The translations under genes and the position numbers were made by a program. From contig PHAM01000005.1 in NCBI GenBank assembly GCA_002841685.1, forward strand, positions 1 through 47,000: a DNA stretch of 47,000 nt. Reading direction: 5' to 3'. Below the pieces are notes generated by a model. It was not told the origin of the DNA and did no database searches. It was given only the letters and a program-made list of their open reading frames with translations. Positions 12,985 through 16,918 of the stretch are shown in pieces (position 1 is the stretch's first letter; the number at the start of each line of letters is the position of its first letter). Source of the DNA: Elusimicrobia bacterium HGW-Elusimicrobia-2. Its GTDB lineage: Bacteria > CG03.

Positions 12985-13178
12985 AAGATGTGAAAATTAA
13001 CAAGTTGAAAAAGAAACTCATGGACGATGTCGACGCGCCCTATGTTATGCTGAATGAGGCGTTCGATCTCTTTAATAAGAAATGGTCAGCTGCTCAGAAA
13101 TCCAGCCCTCTCGACAGAAAGGATATGGATGACCTGATTCTGGAGGCTCTGGATGAGGCCATCCCGGACAAAAAGTAA
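12981..13178 (+). CDS. Small protein in the rpoZ position, possible divergent RNA polymerase omega
   Basis: 65 residues from ATG 12981, preceded by a good ribosome-binding site (ggagg, 12970-12974). The sequence is charged and helical (MKDVKINKLKKKLMDD, then DAPYVMLNEAFDLFNKKW). It sits between gmk and coaC, exactly where rpoZ lies in many bacteria. DAPYVMLNEAFDLFNKKW can be laid over the omega stretch that reads roughly NRYELVLVAAKRAR, but the match is weak and the MxARVT-like start is missing. Omega is therefore a positional guess. It overlaps coaC by 26 bp. Confidence 0.6.
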   Translation: MKDVKINKLKKKLMDDVDAPYVMLNEAFDLFNKKWSAAQKSSPLDRKDMDDLILEALDEAIPDKK

Positions 13179-13698
13179 AAACATCCTTCTGGGAGTCTGC
13201 TCTTCCGCGGCCTGCTTCAAGGCGCTCACCCTGGCGAGTTCTCTTGTGAAGAAAGGGCATGCCGTTAAAACGGTTTTGAGCCCCTCGGCGGCAAAACTGA
13301 TATCGCCGCAGCTTTTTGGAGCCGTGACAAAAAACGAGGCTTTTTCGGAGCAGTTCAATCCGTCATTAGTTTCCGGCGAAGGGCATATATCTCTTTCGGA
13401 CTGGGCGGATTTCTATGTCATAGCCCCCGCTACGGCCAACACCATAGGCAAACTCGCGTCGGGAATATGCGACAACCTCCTTCTGACGCTGGCCGTATCG
13501 CGCAGGGGTGCGCTCTTTATAGCCCCGGCCATGGAGAGCAGGATGTGGAAAAACGGCTTTGTCCGCGCGAATGTTTCAATGCTCAAAAAATCCGGCGTCA
13601 AATTCATAGGGCCCGTCACAGGCCGTTTGGCCAGCGGCTCCACGGGGCCGGGAAGGATGAGCGAAGCCGAAGAGATAATCAAGAACCTTCCTCTGTGA
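13153..13698 (+). CDS. coaC: Phosphopantothenoylcysteine decarboxylase-like flavoprotein, stand-alone and atypical
   Basis: 181 residues corresponding to the CoaC half of CoaBC. CoaC makes 4'-phosphopantetheine by FMN-dependent decarboxylation. Conserved here: SSAACFKAL (FMN phosphate), His78 in GHISLSDWADF and APATANTIGKLASGICDNLL. Two expected residues differ. The PAMN motif reads PAMESRMW (Glu128 for Asn), and the LACG motif reads RLASGSTGPGRM (Ser161 for the Cys used to finish the reaction in E. coli). coaB follows as a separate gene with a GTG start overlapping this stop. Another flavoprotein decarboxylase activity is possible, but the neighbour argues for coenzyme A synthesis. Confidence 0.82.
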   Translation: MRPSRTKSKNILLGVCSSAACFKALTLASSLVKKGHAVKTVLSPSAAKLISPQLFGAVTKNEAFSEQFNPSLVSGEGHISLSDWADFYVIAPATANTIGKLASGICDNLLLTLAVSRRGALFIAPAMESRMWKNGFVRANVSMLKKSGVKFIGPVTGRLASGSTGPGRMSEAEEIIKNLPL

Positions 13699-14312
13699 AA
13701 CGGATCCTCATAACAGCCGGTCCCACGAGGGAGTATTTTGACACGGTTAGGTTCATAAGCAATTCTTCAAGCGGTTACCAGGCCTCGGCCATCGCCGAAG
13801 CGTTTTTAAGGCGGCATTGCGAGGTGAGGATAATAAGCGGACCGGTGGGGCTGGCATATCCCCGGGGCTGTGATGTTATAAACGTTGTCGGCGTCCGCGA
13901 TATGCTCGACCGGGCGCGCGAAAATATGAGATGGGCTGATTTTATGGTTTTCGCCGCGGCACCCTGCGATCTGATGCCCTCGAAACGGTGTGAAAAAAAA
14001 CTCAAAAAGAAAAAATCATCCCTGCCCAAACTCGCGTTTTCTCCGGACATAGCCCTGGCGCTTTCCAGTCTCAAAACAGCTCCGCCTTCGGCGGGTTTTG
14101 ACCTTGAAGACGATCTGGATATGGACGAGGCGATAGATAAAATGCTGCGCAAAAAATTTGACATCATCGTTCAGAACACTCTTCCCGCGATCGCCTCCTC
14201 ACGCACGACGGGATATATGCTTTCCAAATCTGACGCTCTTCTTTTCAGTGATATAAGCAAAAAAGATCTGGCCGGGATTCTCTGCGAAAAAATATGGCGA
14301 ATCATAAACTGA
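13695..14312 (+). CDS. coaB: Phosphopantothenate-cysteine ligase (CoaB), stand-alone
   Basis: 205 residues from GTG 13695, overlapping the coaC stop by four bases. Open reading frame upstream of this point is only the shadow of coaC. The start KRILITAGPTREYFDTVRFI, then SNSSSG, is the nucleotide-binding opening of CoaB. Further family stretches are WADFMVFAAAPCDL, a lysine-rich segment (KKLKKKKSS), PDIALALSS and the tail with FDIIVQNT. CoaB joins cysteine to 4'-phosphopantothenate. In most bacteria it is fused behind CoaC; here the two are split but still coupled. Confidence 0.85.
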   Translation: MKRILITAGPTREYFDTVRFISNSSSGYQASAIAEAFLRRHCEVRIISGPVGLAYPRGCDVINVVGVRDMLDRARENMRWADFMVFAAAPCDLMPSKRCEKKLKKKKSSLPKLAFSPDIALALSSLKTAPPSAGFDLEDDLDMDEAIDKMLRKKFDIIVQNTLPAIASSRTTGYMLSKSDALLFSDISKKDLAGILCEKIWRIIN

Positions 14313-15076
14313 AGAAAATACTGACACAGATGAGAGATGTCGGAATAAATGAGCTGCCATCATCCTATCTCTCCCTGATCGCTCCGCCTGAGAGCGCGCA
14401 AAAAAAAACGCCCCAAAAAAGTCCCGCGTTGGCCGGGCGCTCCGATTCAGAAAAATTAAGGACATCCCATTTTTCCTCGCTTGAAAAGATAAAAGCGCAA
14501 TACCTCGATTGTAAGATGTGCCCGCTCGCAAAGAGCAGGCTTCGTCTTGTTTTCGGCGAGGGGTCAGCCCGCGCGAGGCTCATGTTCATCGGGGAAGGTC
14601 CCGGCTTTACGGAAGATCACCTCGGACGGCCCTTCGTCGGCCGAAGCGGCAACCTTCTGACTGACATTATAACGAGAGGCATGAAAATGAAAAGGGAAGA
14701 TGTCTATATAGCCAACATCGTAAAATGTCACCCGATGAAGGATCCCTCAGATCCCGAAAAACACTCAAATGACCGGCCACCGTCGCCGGAGGAAGTGTCC
14801 AAATGCATGCCCATACTCCTTAAGCAGATTGACGCCATAAGGCCGGAGGTTATATGCACGCTGGGCTCGCCGGCGGCTAAAATAATGCTGAACAGAAAAG
14901 ACGGCATTTCCAATCTCAGGGGTAAGATCTTTGATATCCGCCCTTTGCCGGATGACCCGGATTACAGAGTGAAGCTCGTGCCGACATTCCATCCCGCCTA
15001 TCTTCTGCGCAATCCCCCAGCTAAAAAACCCGCGTGGGAAGACATCAAAGTGATTATGGGCCTTCTAAAAAAATAG
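14294..15076 (+). CDS. Family 4 (iron-sulfur) uracil-DNA glycosylase
   Basis: 260 residues. An N-terminal linker of ~60 residues is followed by the glycosylase domain. Four cysteines fit the [4Fe-4S] pattern: Cys73 and Cys76 (DCKMC), Cys145 (VKCHP) and Cys171 (KCMPIL). Motif A is GEGPGFTEDHLGRPFVGRSG, and motif B is HPAYLLRNP with His233. The protein removes uracil from DNA in base-excision repair. It overlaps coaB by 19 bp, and priA begins three bases after its stop, so it belongs to the same operon. Confidence 0.9.
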   Translation: MANHKLKKILTQMRDVGINELPSSYLSLIAPPESAQKKTPQKSPALAGRSDSEKLRTSHFSSLEKIKAQYLDCKMCPLAKSRLRLVFGEGSARARLMFIGEGPGFTEDHLGRPFVGRSGNLLTDIITRGMKMKREDVYIANIVKCHPMKDPSDPEKHSNDRPPSPEEVSKCMPILLKQIDAIRPEVICTLGSPAAKIMLNRKDGISNLRGKIFDIRPLPDDPDYRVKLVPTFHPAYLLRNPPAKKPAWEDIKVIMGLLKK

Positions 15077-15079
15077 ACT

Positions 15080-16918
15080 ATGGCGGAATCCATAGAGACG
15101 GGGAAATCCTATTGTATAAAAGTCTGCCTGCCCATCCCGGTGAAAGGCGCCTTTGATTATCTCTCGGATGAGCCCGTTCCCGCCGGCTGCCGCGTGATGG
15201 TGCCTTTCGGAAACAGGAAGATCATGGCTTACTGCGTGGGGGATGCGCAAGACTGCTCAAATCTTAAATTAAAAAAAGTAATCAAAAAAATAGACGATTC
15301 GCCCCTCATCAGCGGAGAAATGCTTTCTCTGTCGCTGTGGATGGAAAAAAGATATTTCACTTCCCGCGGCATGGCTTTGAAAGCGATATTGCCGACGGAT
15401 CTCAAGGGAAGGGCGCGGGATTTCAAAGTCTCCGGAGTGCTCCCTTTTACTGCGGCGTTACGGAAGGATCTTCCCGATGTTCCGTCCTCGGCGCGAAATG
15501 TCTATGTTTCAGGCGGCGGCGAATTCCAGAAAAGTTTTATGAGAAGAGAAATGGAAAAAACGATATCAGCCGGAGGCAGGGTGATATTCCTGGTGCCTGT
15601 CATGAGCGAAGCCGCCGCTTTTGAGGATATTCTCGGCGGTTTCCGCGCGGAGCGCTTCGGTTCGGATATTCTGCCGTCACACAGGTACCGGATGCTGTGC
15701 GATTTCAGGGACGGGAATCTGGATGTTATAATCGGCACCCGCAGCGCCGTTTTTGCGCCCCTCGGCGAAAATGGCCTGATAATAATGACGGGAGCCCAGA
15801 AGAAAACTTACATAGAGGAACAGCATCCGCGTTACAGCGCGGAAGAGGTGGCGATGAAACGCGCAGGGCTCTCTTCAGGGCGTTTTATCGCATCGGGCGG
15901 AGCTCTCACCGTGGAGCAGTTTTACAGGGTGAAGAAAGGCGAGGCCCGGGCGGTCTATGAAAAGAATGAAAATCCTGCCCGAAGGATTGTCTGCGACCTC
16001 CTTGAAGACAGCGTGAATTTCGGCGTTTCGGGTGAGCTGTTAAAAAACATAAAAAAAACGCTTGATGAAAAAAAACAGGTCTTGCTCTATTCTCCCCGCG
16101 GCGGCTGGGCCACATCCTATGTCTGCTCCGCATGTAAATTTGTTATGAAATGCGAAAAATGCGCCCGCAAACTCTGCGTATCGGGCTTCAACCTTTATTG
16201 CTCCTCCTGCAAAAAGACTTTTCCTGTTCCGGAAAGATGCCCCCGCTGCAAAAGGAAGAAGATGAAAAACAGGGGGATCGGCAGGGGGCTTGTGGCCTCT
16301 TTTCTGCGCAAGCAGTTTCCGGGAAACAGAATAACGGCTGTGGACATAGATTCATCCCCGGCGGATAACAAGAGGGTTTATGAGAATTATGAGAAAGGAC
16401 AGCTGGATGTGCTGATAAGCGGGCCGGGATTTGCCGCCGTGAGAGACTGGTCAAAGACGGGGCTCTTCGCCGTTATGGACGCGGATTTTCTGCTTTATGG
16501 CGATGACTGGGCCGGCGAGGAAAAAACCTATCTGTGGCTCAGCAGCCTTGATGCTTTTTTCGCGTCCGGCAGGACAGACGCCCTTTTTCTGGCGCAGACT
16601 AAAATAGCGCCTGCGCTCGCGCGGGCGGCGCTCTCCGGCGATGAATCTTTTTATGAGAAACAGCTCGATGTGCGCAGAAAATTCGCTTTTCCGCCATTCG
16701 CGAGGATATTGAAAATAAAGATCTCCGGCCGTGCCGCGGCCGAGGCGGCGCTCAAGCTACGCACTGACATAAAAGACAAAGTCTTGGAGATATCGCCCGA
16801 GGGGCAGGGACTGTCAGCAAAGGGCGGCGTGGAAATACGGGTGAAGATCGATCCCGACGCTCCTTTTGAGATAGAGCCGATGAGAGGCGCGGCTGTGACA
16901 ATAGAGGAAGAACGATGA
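15080..16918 (+). CDS. priA: PriA-like primosomal protein lacking helicase motifs
   Basis: 612 residues; canonical PriA is about 730. Family identity is clear: the 3'-end DNA-binding domain (VKGAFDYLSDEPVPAGCRVM, then VPFGNR), GTRSAVFAPLGENGLIIM (219-236), HPRYSAEEVAMKRAG, the zinc domain and FAFPPFARILKI. The zinc cysteines are all present (349, 352, 358, 361, 374, 377, 387, 390). The ATPase motifs are not: Walker A reads VSGGGEFQK (143-151) instead of GxTGSGKT, the DEEH box reads TGAQ (237-240), and the motif V and VI regions read SGPGFAAVRDW and SLDAFFASGR instead of GTQMxAKGHDF and QVAGRAGR. The open frame is full length with no stops, so this is a coding protein, probably a structural or DNA-binding replication-restart factor. 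Helicase-dead PriA forms are known from Actinobacteria. Confidence 0.85.
   Translation: MAESIETGKSYCIKVCLPIPVKGAFDYLSDEPVPAGCRVMVPFGNRKIMAYCVGDAQDCSNLKLKKVIKKIDDSPLISGEMLSLSLWMEKRYFTSRGMALKAILPTDLKGRARDFKVSGVLPFTAALRKDLPDVPSSARNVYVSGGGEFQKSFMRREMEKTISAGGRVIFLVPVMSEAAAFEDILGGFRAERFGSDILPSHRYRMLCDFRDGNLDVIIGTRSAVFAPLGENGLIIMTGAQKKTYIEEQHPRYSAEEVAMKRAGLSSGRFIASGGALTVEQFYRVKKGEARAVYEKNENPARRIVCDLLEDSVNFGVSGELLKNIKKTLDEKKQVLLYSPRGGWATSYVCSACKFVMKCEKCARKLCVSGFNLYCSSCKKTFPVPERCPRCKRKKMKNRGIGRGLVASFLRKQFPGNRITAVDIDSSPADNKRVYENYEKGQLDVLISGPGFAAVRDWSKTGLFAVMDADFLLYGDDWAGEEKTYLWLSSLDAFFASGRTDALFLAQTKIAPALARAALSGDESFYEKQLDVRRKFAFPPFARILKIKISGRAAAEAALKLRTDIKDKVLEISPEGQGLSAKGGVEIRVKIDPDAPFEIEPMRGAAVTIEEER

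Follow-up and report, generated by a model that had tools for sequence, protein, structure and literature searches.

A PriA orthologue with erased helicase motifs conserved in one family of Elusimicrobiota

Introduction

The priA gene found in the window (the whole stretch of DNA that was analysed, 47,000 nucleotides long) raises the question of what a PriA protein that has lost its helicase motifs could still do for the cell, and whether its state is the outcome of selection or of decay. The preliminary description had read the product as a full-length PriA that lost every helicase motif and kept the zinc domain, with the scaffold selected and ATP hydrolysis discarded, and had proposed an independent loss in another phylum, naming actinobacterial PriA as the precedent. 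It had suggested as checks a search for a second intact priA, dN/dS estimates, a look for assembly errors, a structure prediction and a tree. By annotation, actinobacterial PriA proteins are without detectable helicase motifs. This precedent stands, but as the second one, the stronger case of the Deinococcus radiodurans pseudohelicase having been overlooked.

The concept of a PriA pseudohelicase is already published and established for Deinococcus-Thermus: D. radiodurans PriA has neither ATPase nor unwinding activity and still binds ssDNA, forks and DnaB, and ATPase mutants of E. coli PriA are viable and retain primosome assembly (PMC4504706). For the actinobacterial protein a smaller size and very strong divergence have been noted (PMC1193525). 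In E. coli PriA the zinc region moves, forming an ssDNA pore and exposing partner sites (PMC13377028), and the canonical SSB pocket includes residues of the C-terminal domain (CTD) (PMC5531588). A joint action of DciA and PriA has been suggested (PMC9825169). A search of a literature library found no paper linking Elusimicrobia with PriA loss.

Results

The gene product (Table 1) was best matched by the PRK05580 models in a profile search and was recognized by sequence among the solved PriA structures (E 1e-40), but fell short of the TIGR00595 equivalog cut-off (191.7 versus 230.35 bits). The Pfam models DEAD, ResIII and PriA_C, all matched in the two intact relatives scanned, gave no match in the window PriA and Helicase_C gave a sub-threshold one only; PHROGs returned no match. 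The eight zinc cysteines (C349, C352, C358, C361, C374, C377, C387 and C390), which form two C4 sites inserted in helicase lobe 2, are invariant over 35 PriAs. At the other extreme stands the CTD, where the GP..YR..Q and terminal DxDP segments are gone and where PriA_C (PF18074) was matched in none of three family members scanned. The protein is shorter than the intact Elusimicrobiota PriAs with complete ends (661–678 residues), from which the winged helix is also missing. The frame is uninterrupted over its 612 codons, so that the label full-length holds for the reading frame but not for the domains, as the CTD is trimmed and the Q-motif helix gone.

Table 1. Features of the priA locus and of the dnaN-gyrB region of the same genome.
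Feature	Position	Strand	Detail and basis
coaBC, two overlapping ORFs	13153..14312	+	assigned by sequence inspection
udg (uracil-DNA glycosylase superfamily, PF03167)	14294..15076	+	3 nt upstream of priA
priA coding sequence, predicted ATPase-dead PriA (pseudohelicase)	15080..16918	+	612 aa; start 3 nt past udg stop codon; ORF and profile matches
3' DNA-binding domain (3'BD, PF17764), kept	15119..15394	+	aa 14-105; E 2.3e-21, above curated cut-off
Short linker without Q-motif helix and without winged helix	15398..15493	+	aa 107-138; alignment
Former motif I (Walker A)	15509..15535	+	HGVTGSGKTE to SGGGEFQKS; aa 144-152
Former motif Ia	15590..15613	+	LVPEIALT to LVPVMSEA; alignment
GTRSAVFAP loop, kept in 6/6 family members	15734..15760	+	aa 219-227
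Former motif II (Walker B/DEEH)	15788..15814	+	DEEH to TGAQ (aa 237-240), region TGAQKKTYI
End of aromatic-rich loop	15827..15844	+	canonical PRYHAR to PRYSAE; alignment
Former motif III	15893..15916	+	GSATPxxE to SGGALTVE; SGGAL = aa 272-276
Former motif IV	16088..16108	+	NRRGF to YSPRGGW, GGW invariant in family; alignment
Zinc-binding Cys-rich region	16124..16249	+	8/8 cysteines kept (C349-C390); alignment
Former motif V	16415..16447	+	VGTQMxAKGxD to ISGPGFAAVRD; aa 446-456
Former PDFRAxER segment	16499..16525	+	GDDWAGEEK, E481 kept; alignment
Former motif VI	16544..16573	+	QVxGRAGR to SLDAFFASGR, both conserved Arg gone; aa 489-498
C-terminal domain, trimmed	16691..16915	+	PPFAR start kept; no PF18074 match
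Diverged DciA, 90 aa	L094:4128-4400		synteny and 39% identity to the recognised DciA in G005
dnaN-dciA-gyrB cluster without recF (own genome, C87)	L094:3010-4400		compared with L088:730-3151

The state of each motif was read by alignment against 29 intact PriAs. The window PriA lacks the helix that carries the Q motif (LTxxQ) ahead of the former Walker A, and the Walker A, DEEH, SATP, motif V and motif VI sequences are lost in all six family members. In the aromatic-rich loop the starting EEQHP.Y is invariant in the family and the conserved arginine of PRYxAR is replaced by glutamate. Among 80 positions conserved in at least 93% of the intact PriAs, those in the motifs (columns assigned by the analyst) are kept in all six members in 0 cases out of 29, versus 31 out of 51 elsewhere (Fisher p = 6e-9), which points to a targeted loss rather than to general decay. 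Among the retained positions are the eight zinc cysteines, the two prolines before the CTD and, within the GxRSAxFxP loop, G, R, S, A, F and P. The reported loss of the helicase motifs (Q motif and I–VI) beside an intact zinc domain, 3'BD and GTRSAVFAP loop is thus borne out.

An AlphaFold2 model of the window PriA, calculated from a 35-sequence alignment, reached a pLDDT of 87 and a pTM of 0.85. The PriA fold was recovered, the nine best PDB matches all being PriA, with the fork-bound entry 8fak in first place (TM 0.81) and other PriA entries at TM 0.58–0.67. An intact relative modeled likewise matched 8fak at 0.80 and the other PriA entries at 0.77 or less. A fork-bound-like arrangement of the window PriA is only suggested by these two predictions, each made with a 35-sequence alignment. 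A permanently fork-bound shape was not accepted; the preference for 8fak is smaller in the intact control (0.80 versus 0.77).

The window's named relatives are MAGs assigned to Elusimicrobiota. The motor-less PriA is seen in all six genomes of one family that have a priA (three genera, 38–95% identity); in a seventh, 63% complete, no priA match was found. Eight genomes from four other Elusimicrobiota families carry intact motifs at the same locus, and in a genome of the same class but another family (f2; G007, L062:1483-1851) the contig stops directly behind the 3'BD of PriA. In the window the genes lie on the + strand in the order ruvC-ruvA-gmk-coaBC-udg-priA, and udg-priA, mostly with coaBC upstream, shows the same order in degenerate and intact Elusimicrobiota genomes. 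The existence of intact relatives sharing this locus therefore places the loss at the level of the clade, the orthologous locus having been altered in place. As a side observation, coaBC is split in the window over two ORFs (13153-13698 and 13467-14312), and overlapping translated matches occur at the same places in relatives of the genus.

In the tree the family forms a single clade (100/100) on a long stem, and a grouping with the other Elusimicrobiota is favoured, with weak support (69/25). Compared through models, the protein is much closer to PRK05580 (best E 1e-66) than to the actinobacterial NCBIfam models PRK14873 (best 5e-29). These scores, together with a locus of the type found around intact Elusimicrobiota priA, make the loss look independent of that of the actinobacteria, as had been suspected. 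Horizontal gain of an actinobacterial-type PriA is ruled out by the model scores and the synteny, the tree alone (69/25) not being decisive.

The priA of the family is under purifying selection, about twice as relaxed as in intact priA of sister genera. Values of dN/dS within the genus are 0.17–0.22, against 0.07–0.18 for neighbouring genes and 0.08–0.10 for the intact sister-genus priA; they lie far under 1 for the gene as a whole and for almost every region, the segment of former motif II and the aromatic-rich loop among them, and do not fit neutral evolution. More than 80 columns, among them all eight cysteines, are invariant across the family PriAs, and no stop or frameshift appears in six genomes of three genera. 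Between genera, PriA identity is 37–38%, versus 71–73% for DnaA and 68% for GyrB.

A profile search of the own genome (94 contigs, 96% complete) found no second PriA, the candidates among its matches turning out to be intact Mfd, RecG and UvrB. Each of the other five family genomes with priA gave one PriA match, using a query that detects the intact PriAs of the phylum at E 1e-42 to 1e-63. The same PriA state was found across assemblies from different projects (PEUP, VMTI, JAGHAK and JAGHAG records), which speaks against assembly errors in the motifs. Selection on a single PriA in six genomes of one family thus supports the earlier proposal that the scaffold was kept while ATP hydrolysis was discarded.

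The own genome encodes DnaA, DnaB, DciA, RecG and UvrD (both intact) and RecR. A co-loss of the DciA loader was considered, as the profile missed it, and rejected: a diverged DciA is present between dnaN and gyrB, hence the loader is not lost. This gene scores below the Pfam cut-off (E 0.002) and would be missed by automated annotation. A loader of the DnaC/DnaI type was likewise discarded, the sole IstB-type matches being DnaA and a DnaA-like paralogue.

Discussion

Taken together, the locus encodes the single-copy PriA orthologue of one Elusimicrobiota family, probably turned in the ancestor of that family into a fork-binding pseudohelicase that helps to reload DnaB without unwinding. Such a protein would recognise abandoned forks and D-loops through its 3'BD and what is left of the helicase lobes, and the zinc region would close around the lagging-strand ssDNA; the pore-forming, partner-exposing movement described for E. 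coli (PMC13377028) would explain why this region was kept. PriA would then act as an ATP-independent platform recruiting DnaB, probably via the DciA encoded between dnaN and gyrB, with any clearing of the lagging strand left to other helicases such as RecG or UvrD. We infer the link between DciA and PriA from their co-occurrence and from the suggestion in PMC9825169. Since trimming of the CTD has taken away some of the canonical surface contacting SSB and DnaT, the restart function is less certain here than for Deinococcus PriA; loss of the SSB-pocket part means that the contact with SSB is probably altered. The canonical SSB pocket is likewise missing from S. aureus PriA. From the sequence evidence it can soundly be inferred that restart in this family would proceed without unwinding by PriA.

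Other readings of the locus were weighed against this pseudohelicase. An artefact of assembly or binning, or an intact second PriA hidden in genome gaps, could be entertained for an assembly of 94 contigs that is 96% complete, but the state recurs in assemblies from different projects and in every one of the six family genomes with priA, all of which would need to have an overlooked intact copy; this can practically be dismissed. A decaying pseudogene, or a relaxed vestige heading for loss, would fit the long stem branch and a dN/dS about twice that of intact sister-genus priA. It is nonetheless very improbable, for the frame is free of stops and frameshifts in six genomes of three genera, dN/dS is well below 1 and over 80 columns are invariant. 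Equally improbable is a cryptic ATPase in which residues have moved and an unconventional nucleotide binding and hydrolysis persist: within the genus K151 does align with the lysine of Walker A, but it is absent from the other two genera, the Q-motif helix is deleted, and nothing is left of the GxxGxGKT context, the DEEH box or the two arginines of motif VI.

A more serious, though still unlikely, alternative is that PriA was repurposed as a scaffold binding branched DNA or ssDNA for repair outside replisome reloading, for example alongside RuvABC and the uracil-DNA glycosylase of the adjacent gene. The trimmed CTD, with its SSB-pocket (residues from PMC5531588) and PriA_C features gone, and the conserved place beside udg would agree with it, as would the faster evolution of PriA, since divergence to 37–38% identity between genera could mean a changed role. 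But intact PriAs adjoin udg as well, so that the adjacency is no sign of a new role; the 3'BD, the zinc region and the GTRSA loop occupy their canonical PriA places, and no other restart initiator was found in a search made for PriA itself only.

Like the Deinococcus pseudohelicase (PMC4504706), the protein is orthologous to PriA and has lost motifs I and II, and a platform recruiting DnaB has been proposed there too. It differs in belonging to another phylum, in the erasure of motifs I–VI and of the Q motif, and in its trimmed CTD, while a recognisable Walker A (GKT to GRT) is described for Deinococcus-Thermus (PMC4504706); the motif loss in this Elusimicrobiota family thus appears, as judged from alignments, more complete than the Deinococcus case as published. 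With actinobacterial PriA it shares the motif loss in a PriA-type protein. Compared with the canonical PriA of E. coli and K. pneumoniae (PDB 8fak, 6dcr, 4nl4), it retains the predicted fold, the 3'BD, the zinc region, the GxRSAxFxP loop and the PPF with which the CTD begins, but has no ATPase motifs, no winged helix, a short CTD and PRYSAE in place of PRYxAR.

The motor loss is apparently independent of that in other phyla, and as a natural, clade-wide case it would add to the few bacteria that restart without PriA unwinding. Its repetition supports the view that PriA is essential for recognising forks and loading the helicase rather than for unwinding, and the positions still invariant (3'BD, zinc sites, GTRSA loop, PPF) may serve as a natural map of the loading parts. 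A further proposal, rather doubtful at present, is an ATP-free restart in which PriA would be a permanently loading-competent, fork-shaped platform passing forks to a diverged DciA-DnaB, with RecF loss and CTD trimming as part of the same change.

The recF gene is missing from the dnaN-recF-dciA-gyrB cluster in the family of the window and kept in other Elusimicrobiota families. Five family genomes have dciA almost immediately behind dnaN, and recF lies in between in five relatives; the RecF model scored above its cut-off in none of the 7 family genomes versus 6 of 8 from other families outside the class. RecR is kept in 7/7. Loss of the motor and of recF in one clade is a single evolutionary coincidence, not proof of a link. 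The DnaA-like paralogue was rejected as a compensating loader because it is phylum-wide and also occurs in genomes with intact PriA, hence is not specific. This protein (745 aa, L082:892-3129, own genome C60) has a DnaA-type AAA+ domain (PF00308, E 6e-45) and a zinc-ribbon-like stretch, lacks the DnaA DNA-binding domain, and has homologues throughout the phylum beside the true DnaA.
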